Positions 52,982 to 61,200 of a stretch of DNA of 64,000 nt are shown piece by piece. Numbering within the stretch: position 1 is the first letter of the stretch; each line of letters begins with the position of its first letter. The notes under the pieces were generated by a model. It did no database searches and had not been told where the DNA came from. It worked only from the letters and a program-made list of their open reading frames with translations. Origin of the DNA: Henricia sp. BOLD:AAB3569 (lineage: Eukaryota; Echinodermata; Asteroidea; Spinulosida; Echinasteridae); contig JBBELK010000492.1 of assembly GCA_037783545.1 (NCBI GenBank), positions 1-64,000 on the forward strand, given 5' to 3'. A program made the position numbers and the translations under genes.

Positions 52982-52997
52982 GCATTGGTGGTTCAGT
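52982..52997 (+). pseudogene. 5' part of tRNA-Gly(CCC) split by the insertion
   Basis: The first 16 bases of a CCC gene, ending in GGTTCAGT in the D-loop, run directly into element sequence. The remaining 55 bases lie at 61,146-61,200, and 16 + 55 = 71, so no target base is lost. The A box is cut before its last two bases. Confidence 0.95.
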
Positions 52998-53073
52998 AAT
53001 CTATTTGCACAACCGTCTTTGTTTCCGTCCGACTCCGGTATCTATAGGGTTTAGATATGGGGTGAGATGGATT
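52998..53073 (-). repeat. Split direct repeat B2 (element end)
   Basis: A 76-bp sequence repeated at 53,338-53,413 with a single difference (C at 53,001, A at 53,341). It forms the left border next to the tRNA half-gene. Confidence 0.93.
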
Positions 53074-53277
53074 GAGCATAGAAACCGAAGCCAGAGGAAA
53101 GCTCAGAAATGAAGAAGGAGGTCGAGTGGGCGGGAAAAAAAAAAATATATAATAATACTCACCAGAAGCTGGCCGCCGAGGCCAAACTATTATCTTACCA
53201 CCGTTGAGACATACAACCGTACCGTCCTCTGCCGACTCGTTCCTTCTCGTCCAAATACTCCCCACCTGCCACCTTGA
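53074..53277. other. 204-bp segment between A2 and B2
   Basis: No gene recognised. It includes an A-run at about 53,135-53,145 followed by AT-rich sequence. The open frame across it on the minus strand only reads through the repeats. Confidence 0.5.
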
Positions 53278-53337
53278 TATACTCGAGACTGCGTAGATTC
53301 CTACGCTGCCCTCAACGTCGACGGATGTGCAAATAGT
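53278..53337 (-). repeat. Split direct repeat A2 (internal)
   Basis: A 60-bp sequence identical to 61,086-61,145 (A1). It ends in AGT at 53,335-53,337 and abuts B1 without a gap. Confidence 0.93.
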
Positions 53338-53357
53338 AATATATTTGCACAACCGTC
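53320..53357. promoter_or_regulatory. Candidate tyrosine-recombinase crossover site at the A2/B1 junction
   Basis: Two 16-bp inverted arms (53,320-53,335 and 53,342-53,357, one mismatch) flank a 6-bp centre GTAATA. Tyrosine recombinase sites have this form: inverted arms of roughly 11-13 bp or more around a 6-8 bp spacer. The AGT used at the insertion borders overlaps the left edge of the centre. The target D-loop has GTGGTA at the matching place. That this is the joined-circle site is my inference. Confidence 0.6.
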
Positions 53358-53413
53358 TTTGTTTCCGTCCGACTCCGGTATCTATAGGGTTTAGATATGG
53401 GGTGAGATGGATT
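53338..53413 (-). repeat. Split direct repeat B1 (internal)
   Basis: 76 bp, matching B2 with one difference. Together with A2 it forms the joined B1A2 block typical of split-direct-repeat elements. Confidence 0.93.
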
Positions 53414-54223
53414 TCGCCAAAACCTGCCCCCTAGGCCGCCGAGAACCCCAAAAACCTGCCCAAATACACCCCAAACCTTACCCAAACCTCAAATGAAAGT
53501 GGGATACCATATCAGATACAAAGGAAAGAAAACTGGACTAGCTGTCTTGCCGCCTTTCTTCCATTCTCTTTTCTTCTCCTTTCTTTTCTCAAGCTGTCGC
53601 GCCCAAATTAGTACACCCTAAGCCGTGAATCCGCGTGCGACCTTCCGAGTCACGATCGATCAAAAAACATAGGGTGTCCAGTGGTGTGCTGACTCCAGAT
53701 CCTCCCCTTCAGTACCGCATCCTTTGCCTAGATGCTACCGCAGAAATCGGTCCAACGCTGCAAATGAGTCTGCTCTTTTGCACTTCACATCCATGCTTAT
53801 CCAACTTGTTTGCTCGTTCTGTCAGCCTGGTTGCCACACTGATCATCTTCCAAAAGGGAAAACAAAACGCTCTTGTGAAGAAAAAGGGGGGGGGGGGGTG
53901 TGCCTGATTGAAGAATAAATTTAGCATTATATTGCGATTCCCGAGGGCAAGCCCGAAACGGATGTTAACAACAGCCGCAGCTTGCGCTGGAGCTTAGATA
54001 TCCCATAATCGATAGGTGCACATTGTCCGCAAGATCCTACTGCACGATGCAATTGTTCGAGAAAAACTGCCAGTTAGCTTTATGACAGACATCTTTCAAT
54101 GATGAGTTGACTACGGCGACTGAGCGATTGATACCCACCATCTTGGTTTGGCACACTGAGGAAAGAACGAATATGCATCTTGGGAATTCTTCCCTGATCA
54201 GTTGGGAAACAGTTGGGAAAATT
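53414..54223. other. Non-coding stretch between B1 and the pol remnant
   Basis: It holds a C/A-rich stretch (about 53,417-53,490), a pyrimidine-rich stretch (about 53,546-53,592) and a G13 run at 53,886-53,898. Decayed RNase H C-terminal coding may reach to about 54,040 on the minus strand. A recombinase gene would be expected here for this element class, but I see none. Confidence 0.5.
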
Positions 54224-55581
54224 CTATAGCGAATCAAAGACTGAGAGCAACACAAAATATAGGTCAAGGGCCTCCTTGCAACATATACCCGTATGTGCCA
54301 AGATGTCTGCAGACCGGTAATCTCCGAAACTTACACTACCGTCTGGTAAGACTAGGGTACCGCCCCATTTATATCCAGATACGTCTGCCGACAGTGCTAT
54401 GCGATAACAAGGTGGCGGTCTTGTCTTCAAGCAAGGGATCAGCTGCAAGAAGCTATCAACGAACCTCCAAAATAAAATCTCCTCCCACACTTGTGGCGAC
54501 AGAGGCGTAGGCAAGAGATTATAAAGTGTGGATATGAAGGAGGTGCATTCCCTTAGAAACAAGGATGCAGCCGGAAACACCAGAGCAAAACTTTGGCCTT
54601 TGCCCACAAATCGTCGCATCTGCTTTAAGAGCACTTTATCCTTCCCCAAAATTGTCTCTCGTACCTTAGCGAATGATACCTTTTTATGCTCAGGAATCGA
54701 AAATGACAGGGTTTGGAGCAGATGCCGAACCCGAGATGCACCATGCTGTTCGATGGCTGCCGATGACTTTTCTTTAAGTTGCTGAACAAGCCGAGCTTTA
54801 ACTGTATGTAGCATACGACGTAAACGGCCCTTAGAGCTCTGATGTAGAAACCGTCCCCATGCATGTCCTGTTCACACCGCAATAAAACAAACACGACTGA
54901 AGTGTTTAAAACCTTCGTATACTTTGCCCCTCCATCGCTGGGATGGCACTCACCAATGAAACGGTCGTCTATCCAGATTTCTGTATGTATACCTCTGATC
55001 TTAAGCCATGCAGAGAGACAAAAGCCAATGGATGAGTAAACATATGCACTGTTTTTAAAACCAAAGGGAAGAGTGGAGTCGATGAAGTAAAAGCCCGCCC
55101 ACTTGAAGCCGCAAAGGTTCTGGACTCCTTGGTTAAGAAGATTTGCTTGTATCCCTGGCTGTCGTCGGTACTTGAGAAGAAGAAGAAAAGAAAAAAACAT
55201 TGCCTGAAGGTACCACACTGAAAGGTGTGTCCTTGCGCCAAAGATTAGGTCCCTTCATTGATAGAACCAGACGCGGCTTCTTGGGTTCAACTTTTACACA
55301 CTTCGGCGGCTGTACTTCCTTGACCCTACCTAAAACTTCTATAGAGTCCTCTATCAACCGCTTGGTGATTGTGTCTAAGATAAAGGCGACATAATCTTGA
55401 CAAACGGGCGCATTTAAAAATACCTCTCGGTGGGCAAACCGGAACAGCAATTCCTGCCCCTGTATCGGCCATTAAACGGCTGGAAGAAATCATACAGACT
55501 AACTCCATGATGAAGCCAACCATGAACTTCGTCCCTATTGAGCGACTCAGCTAAGATATCGTCCCAAAACACCAGGATCAT
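54224..55581 (-). pseudogene. Reverse transcriptase / RNase H remnant of a DIRS-like retrotransposon
   Basis: The pol polyprotein of this class copies element RNA into DNA and removes the template. The remnant reads in at least four overlapping minus-strand frames, so it has several frameshifts. Segment 55,581-55,414 starts with Met and has the WDDILAESL...GWLHHGVS stretch seen before the RT in this class. Segment 55,450-55,133 has an upstream RT motif KPRLVL. Segment 55,218-54,625 has TLPFGFKNSAYVY and the catalytic IDDR (residues 83-86). Segment 54,814-54,224 has the connector RRFVGKGQSFAL...PAASLF (residues 67-86) and RNase H motifs ADVSGYKWGG (143-152) and KEA (180-182). These are typical of DIRS/Ngaro/PAT RT-RNase H rather than of LTR or LINE elements. 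Assignment within the class needs a phylogeny. No intact product is possible from these frames. Confidence 0.85.
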
Positions 55582-55794
55582 TGTTTAATGTTCCGGCTAC
55601 AAAATAATTGGATCTCTGAATCTGAACGCCTGTAAATCTGGCTGTAGTCTACCAGAGAGAACGTCAGCTGGGGTTGGTGTAAAAGGGACCGGCAAGCCAC
55701 ATGGTTTGCCATTATATAGGCGTCCGTAAAGGGATCTGGTTGCTGAGATTAGCCGACTTAAGTCGTTGCCCTGTAGCCACCTAGGAGGTTCTTC

Positions 55795-56012
55795 AGCATG
55801 GCCACGAAGTGTGAGAGAACAGGAAGAAATTATCAGTTTTAGAGGTGGGAGGAAAGCCCCACACACTAACGTGTATGGGGGAAAACCCCCGGAATCAGAC
55901 AGGGACTGAGAACCCAATCCACATACTGACCCGGACGGGATTCGAACCTGGACGAAATTCGAACCGGGCCACATTGATGGGAGGCGAGGAAAGAGCCGTA
56001 CGCCAACCTGAC
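55795..56012 (-). mobile_element. Possible tRNA-derived SINE-like sequence
   Basis: On the minus strand an A-box-like TGGCGTACGGC (56,005-55,995) lies about 40 nt before a B-box-like GGTTCGAATTT (55,965-55,955). A second GGTTCGAATCC follows at 55,948-55,938, and then sequence unrelated to tRNA. Head spacing fits a tRNA-derived SINE. The 3' boundary is unknown and may extend to about 55,690. It sits upstream of pol, where gag would be expected, and the open frame at 55,597-56,019 runs through it. Confidence 0.4.
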
Positions 56013-56374
56013 TTGCCATTGAAAACTACCCATTGGGAGGTGTCTCGTTTCCGCTTCGCTGGGATCAAAAAATTGATCAAAATATCTCTCCCACATCTCC
56101 AATATTTTCAAAAACCACTGGTACTCAAATGCTTTTCCTTTACATCTTCGGCAGACAATGGCTCGAACTCGTCCACGTATTCTCTAATCACGGTCATGAC
56201 GTAGGCAACATTGCGATCATAGCCCGTCTCCATGCACGCTTGAGCAGCTGCAGGCGTCTTGGCCTGCATGTATGGAACAAACCATCACATAATTTGTTGA
56301 CGTACTAACAGGGTCCGCCGCTCGACCTTTCATAAACGCACAAACCACGGCACGTTGTATGTAATAACCCACTA

Positions 56375-56560
56375 CAGAGGCCCGTCCTCTGGTTTTTTTT
56401 TTTTTTGCTTGTCTGTTCGTTTGTTGGGTTGTTTGTTTGCTTTTTATTTATTTATTTATTTTTTATTATTATTATTATTTTTTTTAAGGTAATTCAAAAC
56501 TTTTAAAGTTAATCAAAACTGCAAATACATACATATATATATATGTATATATGTATCATA
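56375..56560. repeat. Homopolymer and microsatellite tract
   Basis: After a hairpin motif at 56,375-56,391 come a T-run, GT-rich sequence, TTTA repeats (about 56,444-56,461), TTA repeats (about 56,462-56,478) and an AT-rich run near 56,530-56,556. No gene. Confidence 0.8.
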
Positions 56561-57375
56561 AACATGGCATCCAGAGGCCCGTCCTCTGCCTAGCACAGAG
56601 TACATATATGCGAAAAAGAAGTACATTGTACCATAAACATAGTATACGGAGGCCCGTCCTCTGTCTGGCACAGAGCACATATATGCAAAATCTAAATACA
56701 TTGTACCATAAACATGGCATTCTGAGGCCCGTCCTTGCGAAAAAGAAGTACATTGTACCATAAACATGGTATTCGGAGGCCCGTCCTCTGTCCAGCCCAG
56801 AGCAAGTATATGCGAAATAGAAATATATTGTACCATAAACATGGCATTCTGAGGCCCGTCCTCTGCCTAGCACAGAGTATATGCGAAATGGAAGTACATT
56901 GTACCATAAACATGGCATTCAGAGGCCCGTCCTCTACCTAGCACAAAAATACATATATGCGAAATAGAAGTACATTGTACCATAAACATGGCATTCAGAG
57001 GCCCGTCCTCTGCCAGTACAGAGTACATACGGTGTATATGCAAAATAAAGTTACATTGTACATTGTACCATACAACCTGGCATTCGGAGGCCCGTCCTCT
57101 GCCTAGTACAGAGTACATACGGTGTATATGCAAAATAGAGTTACATTGCACATGTACCATACAACCTGGCATTCAGAGGCCCGTCCTCTGCCTAGTACAG
57201 AGTACATACGGTGTATATGCAAAATAGAGTTACATTGCACATGTACCATACAACCTGGCATTCAGAGGCCCGTCCTCTGCCTAGTACAGAGTACATACGG
57301 TGTATATGCAAAATAGAGTTACATTGCACATGTACCATAAACCTGGCATTTAGAGGCACGCCCTCAGCCTAGTAC
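56561..57375. repeat. Minisatellite with hairpin core, 75-bp and 89-bp units
   Basis: Tandem units share the core CAGAGGCCCGTCCTCTG, whose ends CAGAGG and CCTCTG can pair around a CCCGT loop. Core starts are at 56,572, 56,647, 56,722, 56,774, 56,849, 56,920, 56,996, 57,085, 57,174, 57,263 and 57,351. The left part steps by about 75 bp (one short step of 52). The right part steps by 88-89 bp with nearly identical units. Between cores are GTACATTGTACCATAAACATG-like words. Open frames here are by-products of the repeat. Confidence 0.9.
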
Positions 57376-59200
57376 AGAGTACACATGCAAATTCAAGGGT
57401 ACATTTAGATTGGTTCCTGATCCCTACAGATTAGATGCTTATTGCGAAAATATAGGGATCGGTAAAGGGCAGCCATGACGGGCAGAATTCTGCCCGTCAC
57501 GCGGTTATTATTATTATATATTGTTGGTAAGCGCGCATATTTTGACATTTGTATCCCGGCCGTGCGTGTCAACATATCCAATTATGTAAATAAAGCGCAA
57601 TGCCTAAAGCAAAGGGCTTCGCCAATTTTAAAATATATAACATACAATGCGCACGCGCAAAGACGACCAATCACAGATCAAGATGAAGCGCCCTCTACCT
57701 GTCCTTACACTCTCCTACGTGGAACATGTGGACGGGAACCAGTCTGGGGTACATTCATTCAGAGGCCCTGCGCAGCGCCCCTGCGATATAGATGCTCATT
57801 AAGCTTGGCGTTCAGAGGCCCGCCCTCTGTCAAGCACACATGCCATACATGTATATGGGTATATTACACTCGACCTACAGGGACCCGTCCTGCGTCTAGT
57901 ACCTGTATCTATACACATAGAAAACATGGGCACATTAAAATTTGGCATTCATTAAAATTGACTTTTATTGAAATGTTGTATTCAGAGACCCGTCCTCATA
58001 ATAAACTTGGTATTTGGAGGCACGCACTCTATCTAGTATATATAGTACGTGGGAAATATTGATATCATTTTCTCGGCATTCAGAGGTCCGTCCTCTGTCT
58101 AATACAGAGTACATGTGGAATATATAGTGTATTACCACTTGGAATTCAGAGGCCCGACCTCTGGCTATTTACATGTAAACTATGAGTACTTTCAAACTTG
58201 CCCTTTAGAGGCCCGTCCTCGGCTTATACAGATTGTGACTAGGGTTATGACGAAACTTAGTATGTTAAGCCCAACCTCTAGTGCACCTGTATATTGCTGC
58301 TTAATGGCGAAAGATATATATCACTCAGTCTAATGGACGTGCTCACGAACAACCGCATAGCATTCAGAGGCCCATCCTCTGCCTCCTCAACCAGTCCTGG
58401 TCCATAGAAACACGGCCTAGGCCTTGGTACTCGGAAGCCCTACCCGTGCTTCGTAAATTGTCTAACAAAAAAAGGGTGCTGAAATTGCGCGTAGGGGGAG
58501 CCCGTCCTCCACTTCATAAATCTAGCAAGCCAGAGTACATTAACTTGCCACTTAGGGCCTGTTCTATTATCTATGAGGTTGCTAACACAGGTACCTTAAA
58601 ACAAAAAGCCAGAACCAGATTTTCCAAATGCTAGGCTGACTCCTTTATATTGCTATATTCCACTCGTTATACATGTTCGAGCAATATACTATGTTAGTTG
58701 ACCTCGAGAACGCACGAGACCACTGTTAATTCCGGGCATAACACCATATCTCTTCAACGTACATCGCAAGCGAAATTTATAGATTATTTTGTTTACGCAG
58801 GTTTTTGTAAACTCACACGGCCCAAAACGCGTATCTATAAATAATAATTTTTTTTTTTTTTTTTTTTTCCCGTTTTGGGAGAAAATTATGCGTATTATAT
58901 ATTGTAAAAACATATTAGTTACCCGATTCACATTCGGGTCAGGTTGTAGACTTAAGATTGGACAGAAATATTTATATAAAAACAAACAAAATTTCGCCCG
59001 TGTTATAAGAATAGGCGTTTCAGTCGTGTTGTGCCCAAAAGCTCAGATTTGACCTTTGCCGCAAGACTTACATAGTCTAAAACAAAACAAAAATTGTGAG
59101 GGCACTTTTCGAACTATGGATCTTGAAAGAGGCCCGCCCTCTATCGTCCAACGAACCTGCAAACTGGTATTTTAATTATGATGATTCAAGGGCGTGCCCT
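57376..59200. repeat. Dispersed, diverged copies of the hairpin core
   Basis: Recognisable but decayed cores (GAGGCCCGYCCTC-like) recur at irregular spacing near 57,757, 57,811, 57,981, 58,080, 58,146, 58,207, 58,362, 58,498 and 59,130. Conservation falls with distance from the regular array, as expected for an older flank. A T21 run lies at 58,848-58,868. No gene is supported. Confidence 0.6.
57476..57499. repeat. Perfect 24-bp palindrome
   Basis: The half-site TGACGGGCAGAA is followed at once by its exact reverse complement. It could extrude as a cruciform or bind a dimeric protein; no function is evident. Confidence 0.85.
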
Positions 59201-59541
59201 GCTTATAAACATGCTAGAATTGCACACTGAGCCAAGTTTGCCCGTTGGTCGATGTCTTCCCGACCATCCTAAGCAAGATCCTTAAAATCACTTAGATGAA
59301 ACGTTAAAAGTGCTGCACAGGCCTTTATATAAGGAGCTTGCTGAGTTCACGCAGACGCACACTGTACCTGGGCCGCCTGGCTCCATAAAAAGGCGGAGAA
59401 GAGCACTGTTTCTGAGACGCGTGTGTCAAACTGCCCTTTACCTTTTTTTTAATTTTTTTTATTTATGTTTTTTTTGTTTTTTGTTTTTTACATATTATAA
59501 TACATATAATATGTACATACATATACGTATACTCTTTCGCT
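59201..59541. other. Unassigned stretch
   Basis: No gene or repeat family recognised. It is T-rich from about 59,443 to 59,490 with AT-rich sequence after it. Confidence 0.4.
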
Positions 59542-59593
59542 ATTAGGACGACCGGTTATGGGTAAAAAGGGCGTATTGAGACGACCACCGTCG

Positions 59594-59622
59594 TTAGCGC
59601 GACCGACGGCCGGTCGCGCTAA
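59594..59622. repeat. Strong hairpin, 12-bp stem
   Basis: TTAGCGCGACCG and its exact reverse complement flank the 5-nt loop ACGGC. GC-rich stem in an AT-rich region. Confidence 0.8.
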
Positions 59623-59635
59623 TGATAAATGCTTC

Positions 59636-59723
59636 AAAAACCATCTTTATTAGGTCGAAAACCATTTTCATTAGGTTTCTCACCATTGTTGTTAGGTTAC
59701 AAACCATTTTCGTTTAGGTCAAA
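59636..59723. repeat. Short imperfect repeats, ACCATTTTTATTAGGT-like
   Basis: Four or so tandem copies of a roughly 22-24 bp unit. The same unit reappears at 60,137-60,200, on the other side of an AT repeat (59,874-59,896). Confidence 0.7.
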
Positions 59724-60136
59724 AAACATGTTGATGAGACCTTTAAGTCGAGAAAATTTGGTTTAGTTGTCTTTGTGAGCTCTCTTCCCATTTTGGTCGT
59801 CCTAATGCGGGGCTCTACTTTACACAAGGAGCGGTACAAAATCAATCAAAAACTGGGATAGGTTTTAGTTCACCATATATATATATATATATATATAATT
59901 TTTTTTTTGTGGATACCTCCACTCGTCAGGGAATTGTAATGGCATTCTCGAAACATTCTACCTGTGCATCAAGTTGGGGGACGCGCGAACGCAAAAACGT
60001 AAAAACGCGCGCTGGGATTGCGGGCGTATGTTGACAACATGACGCTGGCGTGGGGAAATATGGCCGTGCCCGAACTACCTAGTTTATATACTACCTAATT
60101 TTAATTTCCCACTAACGAAAATTTTTTTTTTTTTTT

Positions 60137-60200
60137 AGGTTTCAGACCATTTTTATTAGGTCACAAACCATTTTTATTAGGTTACAAACCATTTTTGTAG
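60137..60200. repeat. Second cluster of the ACCATTTTTATTAGGT-like repeat
   Basis: Three copies, cleaner than the first cluster, following a T-run. Confidence 0.7.
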
Positions 60201-61085
60201 ATTTGGGTAAAGATAGTTAGTGTTCATTAGAAAAGATTTTACCGAAAATTTGGTGGTCCTTTAAAAGAGGGTTCCCTTAAAACATTTTTTTTTTTTTGCA
60301 AAATTTCCCCCTTCAATTCAATCTAGCGGAGTATTATATATATATATTCTTATAGTGCGTACTCGCGAATGGTAGGCTTTTAGCCCAAACCTAATTTAAA
60401 GAGTCGTATGCCGCATTTTTATACGCAAATAATATTTGGCAGTATACATGTGTACCTGTCGAATGCCTGGGCCCGCGTCGCCACACGGGCGATACCTACA
60501 AAATACGGGCCTGAGGCTACTCGGCCTAATTCGTCATGTTTATGGGCCTGACAGATGCTTTACCAAAACTGAATATTATCTTATGACATATAAAGCATTC
60601 GAGCAATTCGTATCTCAACTAAGGTGTAAATCATGTCCATCTTCCGCACATTCAACCAACGAGTACATGTAGTTGGAAACTTGTCCAGTACATAAAACAC
60701 CGCCGCGGCCGCATAACCCGCACATATAGCATTGGCCCTGTAGCCTGTAATACACGTGCATTTCTGGAACTACTGGAGCGCGCTCTACCATTTTAAGAAA
60801 AAGCCAATTTGACTATGTGCAAAACGTATAGGCTCTATCCCCGCGTAGTGCCAACCGTGCGTGCGGGAACGACGATTGCTGAAAGCCGCCGTAATGATAC
60901 AATTGTTTAAATGCCTCTAAATTACTCTGGTTACCTGATTTCGCCAGAGACGTGGAGTGGTCTCTGATTTCGCCTTACAAAACCTCCCAGACTCGACGCT
61001 AGGTGACACACAACTGCACTTTCATGAGAATTTAAAACCATTAATTATCCCGAGCGATCACACAGACGTCCACCAGACGGGTTGC
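60201..61085. other. Unassigned stretch next to A1
   Basis: This is where the 5' leader or gag of the element would lie on the minus strand. I see no supported coding sequence; short open frames are not conserved-looking. Confidence 0.4.
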
Positions 61086-61145
61086 TATACTCGAGACTGC
61101 GTAGATTCCTACGCTGCCCTCAACGTCGACGGATGTGCAAATAGT
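61086..61145 (-). repeat. Split direct repeat A1 (element end)
   Basis: 60 bp identical to A2, ending in AGT at 61,143-61,145, right at the 3' half of the tRNA gene. Confidence 0.93.
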
Positions 61146-61200
61146 GGTAGAATTCTCGCCTCCCACGCGGGAGACCCGGGTTCAATTCCCGGCCAATGCA
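61146..61200 (+). pseudogene. 3' part of tRNA-Gly(CCC) split by the insertion
   Basis: Bases 17-71 of the interrupted gene, from GGTAGAATTC to the discriminator A. The CCC anticodon and intact B box (GGTTCAATTCC) are retained. The preceding AGT (61,143-61,145) restores part of the D-loop, but the 5' half is 8.1 kb away. Confidence 0.95.

Follow-up and report, generated by a model that had tools for sequence, protein, structure and literature searches.

How does a retroelement come to lie inside a tRNA gene without the loss of a single target base, and are tRNA genes its regular target? The question is raised by positions 1-64000 of contig JBBELK010000492.1 (C492; hereafter the window, 64,000 nucleotides) from the sea star Henricia sp. 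BOLD:AAB3569 (assembly GCA_037783545.1; 740.7 Mb in 2104 contigs), where an 8148-bp element interrupts a tRNA-Gly gene within a tandem tRNA array. The element is very probably a non-autonomous Ngaro-like retrotransposon, that is, of the tyrosine recombinase (YR) type with split direct repeats, which integrated through the junction of a circular form and for which the D-arm of tRNA-Gly was one of many sites.

The split tRNA-Gly gene and the inserted element

The window carries tRNA-Gly genes (TCC, GCC and CCC) in tandem throughout positions 1-64000, in a 593-bp unit that yields 281 genes by ARAGORN. The inserted element splits a tRNA-Gly(CCC) gene in the D-arm, directly after TTCAGT. When the flanks 52982-52997 and 61146-61200 are joined, they give the 71-nt tRNA-Gly(CCC) gene letter for letter, a sequence that is present in 88 intact exact copies in the window, where GGTTCAGTGGTAG sites number 279. 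ARAGORN found no tRNA gene between 52878 and 61331. The host gene and the element are composed of the following parts:

52982..52997, plus strand: 5' part of the tRNA-Gly(CCC) gene, ending in AGT (assigned by flank joining)
61146..61200, plus strand: 3' part of the tRNA-Gly(CCC) gene (assigned by flank joining)
52998..61145, coding sense on the minus strand: inserted element, 8148 bp, with the left AGT assigned to the target
52995..53073, plus strand: A1 repeat, its initial AGT common to the target
53278..53337, plus strand: B1 repeat, with terminal AGT
53335..53413, plus strand: A2 repeat, overlapping B1 by AGT
61086..61145, plus strand: B2 repeat, the right end of the element
53320..53357, no strand: B1/A2 copy of the circle junction, with 17-bp arms flanking TAAT (arm match 15/17)

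The A1 and A2 repeats (79 bp) differ by one mismatch, and B1 and B2 (60 bp) are identical. Their order on the plus strand is A1-B1-A2...B2, which in the minus-strand coding sense reads A1-ORFs-B1A2-B2 (ORF, open reading frame), the arrangement known as split direct repeats. The left border, GGTTCAGT followed by AAT, begins at 52990, and the right border, GCAAATAGT followed by GGTAG, places the end of the element at 61145; each occurs once in the window. The B1/A2 junction reads GCAAATAGTAAT, with AGT at 53335-53337, so that all three junctions, the two borders and the internal one, contain AGT. An earlier note, made from the sequence alone, had reported the same three junctions and the exact restoration of the target, and these are confirmed. 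It had given the retrotransposon as 52982-61200; its insertion in tRNA-Gly stands, the element proper spans 52998-61145, and its reverse transcriptase (RT)-like frames lie on the minus strand.

The B1/A2 junction forms an imperfect palindrome, GACGGATGTGCAAATAG-TAAT-CTATTTGCACAACCGTC. In the commonest form among close relatives 16 of the 17 arm positions match, and in a diverged form all 17 do, both arms having been altered (GAC/GTC to GGC/GCC). Of the 30 copies read, 25 have arms that agree at 15 or more of the 17 positions, and the other five have arms that agree at 12-14.

Two side observations concern the array. A CCC gene with an internal 45-bp deletion lies at 2262-2287 of the window (GCATTGGTGGATTCCCGGCCAATGCA). 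In the unit adjoining the insertion, a 9-bp spacer deletion (52776) and a G-to-A change in tRNA-Gly(GCC) (52852) occur nowhere else in the window; the element may be an obstacle to homogenisation of the units beside it.

Border sequences, empty sites and the mode of integration

A search of the genome by the element ends, the check named in the earlier note, revealed a dispersed family. The A-end pattern, with at most one mismatch, has 191 matches in the whole genome versus none for the reversed-pattern control, a full copy yielding two. Forty left and 40 right ends were read, all among the best-scoring: the left ends are the best 40 of 512 candidates from a search with the A1-B1-A2 region (30 loci and ten 86-base pieces), and the right ends are 39 of the best 40 of 466 candidates plus L048, with the other C492 copy not included. 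Both samples lean to close relatives. Distinct flanks number 39 of 40 on the left and 37 of 40 on the right, the rest repeating another flank in the set. For the left ends L081-L090 and the right ends L051-L080 about 60 bases of flank were read, which lie outside the tRNA-gene scan described below.

All 40 left ends have one base, N, followed by GTAAY, where N is A in 39 copies and T in the one within a tRNA-Pro array; the base before N is T in 27, C in 10 and G in three. At the right ends AATA precedes G in 39 copies and A in one, after which stands T (26), C (11), G (2) or A (1). The shared AGT proposed in the earlier note is present at all three window junctions and is not strict across copies, since G is the sole constant base of the shared (A)G(T) at the left border. 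As a side observation, the 60-bp right flank is nearly identical in L052 and L063, which belong to two subfamilies; either one repeat was hit on two occasions or copies recombined with each other.

Tandem arrays offer empty counterparts of occupied sites. The 205-bp satellite around L033 contains 12 empty-like sites, of which eight read TTTTAGCAGGC, one TTTTAGCAGGA and three TTTTAACAGGC. At the occupied site the left border is TTTTAGT and the right border AGCAGGC, and none of the 12 sites has T after AG; the left T is therefore the element's own. In the tRNA-Pro array, the empty site in neighbouring units is CCTTGTGCTTGG. The left border of the insertion there is CATTGT and its right border AGTGCTTGG, and a C-to-A difference lies three bases ahead of the G. 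The left TAAY and the right ATA thus belong to the element and the target bases are kept, which argues for recombination at (A)G(T).

The ten copies with both ends in hand lead to the same conclusion. Their left and right 3-mers agree in four copies, each with AGT on both sides, and differ in six (the right end of L042 is AGC), which again points to recombination at (A)G(T) without a 3-bp target duplication. A DNA transposon that duplicates 3 bp and prefers AGT would account for the four agreeing pairs; it is nevertheless very improbable, given the six unequal pairs, the satellite sites in which the left T is seen to be the element's own, and the combination of split direct repeats with RT, which fits a retroelement. 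A 3-bp target duplication as such is rejected on the mismatched ends together with the empty sites of the tRNA-Pro array and the 205-bp satellite. Unrelated 3-bp flanking duplications, which the earlier note had named as the sign of a DNA transposon, were looked for and not seen.

Recombination of a circle junction through a short shared sequence, with no target bases lost, is thus upheld by the exact restoration of the gene, the border rule and the empty sites. Both features of YR-retrotransposon integration were found, namely the absence of a target duplication and a short identity between circle junction and target. In the published model (PMC3266345), 3 bp at the circle junction recombine with the same sequence in the genome, and no target duplication results. 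DIRS1-like elements, to which that source refers, would share this mode of integration, whereas the element described here has direct rather than inverted terminal repeats and its 3-bp match is often incomplete.

The steps can be pictured as follows. Reverse transcription of an RNA copy would yield a circle, and the imperfect palindrome with its arms around TAAT would lie at the B-A junction of this circle. A tyrosine recombinase, presumably supplied in trans by a relative, would then exchange strands at the boundary of arm and spacer, ATAG^T (the caret marks the exchange), with a genomic site (A)(T/C)AG(T/C), of which TTCAG^T in the tRNA-Gly D-arm would be one acceptable example among many. 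The exchange position coincides with the edge between the left arm and the spacer. Target letters replace TAAY at none of the 40 left ends, whereas exchange of both strands across the 4-bp spacer predicts such replacement in about half; because of this, we infer that one strand is exchanged or that the stagger is very short. In phage and plasmid YRs the exchanges are paired and span a 6-8 bp overlap. A wider picture, in which a YR family dispersed by sequence to YAG[T/C] sites is drawn to tandem arrays and the borders, with the element's TAAY on every left end and target letters on every right one, reflect a one-strand ATAG^T exchange resolved by replication, is speculative and on balance doubtful.

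Coding remnants and relationship to known retroelements

The window copy is non-autonomous: its RT is broken and the segment with the presumed recombinase is missing. Its coding remnants and remaining features are as follows:

54628..55254, minus strand: RT piece with broken frame, similar to seven database proteins
55136..55584, minus strand: N-terminal RT pieces in two other frames (55136-55471 and 55417-55584), similar by eye to P0002-P0005
54227..54871, minus strand: C-terminal RT/RNase H-like piece, the RNase H named by eye
54040..54330, minus strand: remnant similar to the SGNH/GDSL-like piece seen in L043 and L048 (judged by eye)
53600..53602, no strand: position at which about 0.9-1.2 kb of extra sequence is present in seven diverged relatives (L042, L044 and L046-L050)
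56376..59145, no strand: palindromic repeat like AGAGGCCCGTCCTCTG, 18 copies, partly in 71-89 bp tandem units

The best of the seven database relatives of the main RT piece shows 51% identity over 65%, and for the rest identity is 67-77% over 31-35%. RVT_1 is matched by six of the seven (E-values of 3e-5 to 0.05), all below the curated cut-off. The window's own RT-like pieces, including the ORF overlapping 54628..55254 and the piece at 55136-55471, have no RT match in Pfam, and ORF 54224-54814 matches Stb3 alone, below the cut-off. The remnant at 54040..54330 has no GDSL match in Pfam; PF13472 (SGNH/GDSL-like) is matched in three relatives (E-values of 0.002 to 0.3, below the cut-off). Translated pieces of relatives also show repeats similar to the AGAGGCCCGTCCTCTG-like palindrome.

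Among the diverged relatives, the SGNH/GDSL-like piece sits between RT and the presumed recombinase, whose C-terminus is held by the extra segment in L042, L046, L048 and L049, the relatives for which pieces are listed. This piece, of up to 124 amino acids, contains AHSSRA..CQWAS..TYKHYT, which we take, by eye rather than by any tool, to be a YR-like motif pattern. A near-identical subfamily keeps just residues ~34-122 of it, mostly with one TGA, and is perhaps another non-autonomous expansion. The window, L031, L032 and L035 have an identical RT/RNase H piece of 215 aa, bounded by the same stops, so this form of the element spread while already broken.

According to PMC9210276, PMC8547959 and PMC6681497, Ngaro elements have split direct repeats in the order A1-ORFs-B1A2-B2. 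The element shares with them these repeats, RT-like pieces (with RVT_1 matches below the cut-off in database relatives) and an SGNH-like piece (in relatives), and the window copy differs by its broken RT and missing presumed recombinase region. It is best filed as Ngaro-like, an assignment that rests on anatomy because the tools do not confirm the presumed recombinase; likewise, the YR-type retroelement named in the earlier note is supported by anatomy. Ngaro-like elements are set apart from DIRS/PAT by the absence of a methyltransferase-like domain; the Pfam scans of this element covered chosen pieces.

Several results weigh against this assignment. The presumed recombinase piece of the relatives has no match in Pfam or PDB, nor any database protein at an E-value of 0.001. 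For one of two such pieces a PHROG integrase appears at 0.12, behind a family of unknown function at 0.085, and unrelated NCBIfam models match better (0.008-0.05; HelR 0.008 and UAAP2 0.026). The predicted fold is unusable, with a predicted local distance difference test (pLDDT) value of 39. The SGNH-like piece precedes the presumed recombinase in the relatives, whereas in PMC9210276 the hydrolase comes after the YR. No circular form was seen. A Pfam integrase scan of the genome gave 141 matches (the best 141 of 474 candidates), with no assignment to this element family made.

tRNA genes and tandem arrays as possible targets

Site-specific targeting of tRNA genes, as by phages and Dada transposons, corresponds to the phage-style reading offered in the earlier note. 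The precise insertion in the D-arm, a second C492 copy that occupies the identical position of a tRNA gene, and another copy within a tRNA-Pro array speak for it. Genome-wide, exact left ends of the form GGTTCAGT followed by AAY number at least two, the window copy and C492:141975, both in the same array and against hundreds of available sites, and none of the other 38 of the 40 left flanks is tRNA-Gly. In the 1.5-kb left flanks of 28 further loci, tRNA genes were found near one (L010) and in none of the other 27. Even at L010 the element lies in the spacer, ~60 bp after tRNA-Pro(CGG) and outside the gene. Targeting of tRNA genes is therefore quite improbable as an explanation, and tRNA-specific targeting is largely refuted by the pattern search together with the flanks. 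Within the 593-bp unit YAGT occurs seven times on the plus strand (three in tRNA genes) and three times on the minus strand (two in tRNA genes); that an element which reached the array should hit a tRNA gene is thus unremarkable. As a side observation, at L039 (contig C120 near 1606680) three tRNA-Pro genes (TGG, AGG and CGG) recur per 714-bp tandem unit.

Phages and genomic islands that integrate into tRNA genes use a short core identical between circle and gene, rebuild the gene and have it as their regular site. The element likewise has a short core, but it splits the gene, no tRNA gene being rebuilt by ARAGORN; most insertions are outside tRNA-Gly, and the site is incidental. The phage-style use of tRNA genes suggested in the earlier note is accordingly not borne out. 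Dada DNA transposons (PMC8869645) insert in the A-box region of tRNA genes, with a tRNA-Gly family known, and show 6-7 bp duplications and target specificity, neither of which is seen here.

The two C492 copies bear on the same question. The array sequence recurs on this contig at 141-151 kb (L002, L031), and the copy at C492:141975 differs from that of the window at 13 of 8144 sites. Among seven copies the pair alone shares a TT deletion near 56392, an A at 56450 and a poly-T gap near 58868. Probably this is one insertion duplicated with the array, the most likely origin of the second copy. That the two copies were inserted independently at one tRNA position is unlikely, although a one-base difference and a 9-bp deletion, the latter on the window side alone, distinguish the 1.5-kb left flanks (about two thirds of 1507 bases compared), which counts against a duplication, and L032, located elsewhere, is almost as close (16 versus 13 substitutions). 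The private features shared by the pair argue the other way, even though two of them lie in homopolymers, and the pattern search of the genome found no further exact occurrence of the tRNA-Gly left junction.

Do young copies then favour tandem arrays more generally? With the C492 pair merged, the 12 copies of at least 97% identity over a 430-bp query represent 11 events, of which five lie in or at arrays. Three are in gene arrays: tRNA-Gly (window, L031), tRNA-Pro (L010) and histone H2A/H2B (L005). The other two are in satellites, a 205-bp one on both sides (L004/L033) and a 178-bp one at the right end only (L003/L032); L032, with the array on its right only, may be a recombinant. L006 has a two-fold repeat of 351 bp.

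A preference of young copies for tandem multicopy arrays, both multigene and satellite, whether at insertion or in later retention, is possible and we regard it as a lead. Besides the five of 11 events, finding at least three of 39 events in multigene arrays has a probability of 0.0002-0.007 if such arrays are assumed to make up 0.3-1% of the genome. The probability rises to 0.04 at 2%, and of this assumed fraction the histone share alone is estimated. On C62 the H2A/H2B spacing is ~2430 bp, and 435 H2A pattern matches occur genome-wide (the 100 listed all on C62), giving ~1.06 Mb or 0.14% of the genome if every match marks a 2.43-kb unit. Left flanks are self-similar in five of 11 close events (Gly, L003, L004, L006 and L010) and in two of 18 diverged ones (L015 and L029), which gives p = 0.07 at a threshold of at least 0.35 of 1.5 kb set after the values were seen and with the histone case omitted. 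The test was also framed after the cases had been seen, and it has no random-genome baseline for comparison. The safe haven imagined in the earlier note thus survives in a broader and unproven form (young copies in tRNA-Pro, histone and satellite arrays), with no specificity for tRNA genes seen.

The histone arrays extend over 26-342 kb of C62 and 254-339 kb of C257. The C62 units are interrupted by several gaps of ~9-25 kb, one holding L005/L034 and one a related recombinase piece (C62:289457). The related subfamily (63 of 150 listed rows, hand count) has this one row in the C62 histone array and one between C257 histone matches (304321), which may be duplicates of one another.

TATE of trypanosomatids (PMC6681497) is likewise a YR retroelement in a tandem repeat; it occupies one relative position in telomeric hexamers, whereas the family described here is dispersed. 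Among titles and abstract openings, mostly of non-subscription literature, we found no YR retrotransposon in a tRNA gene or with a preference for tRNA or histone arrays.

Tandem arrays supply adjacent empty sites, from which the effect of a YR retrotransposon on its target can be read directly: no base is lost, none is duplicated, and at the left border just the G stays constant. Should young copies indeed collect in tRNA, histone and satellite arrays, this would be a route to tolerant sites without sequence targeting.

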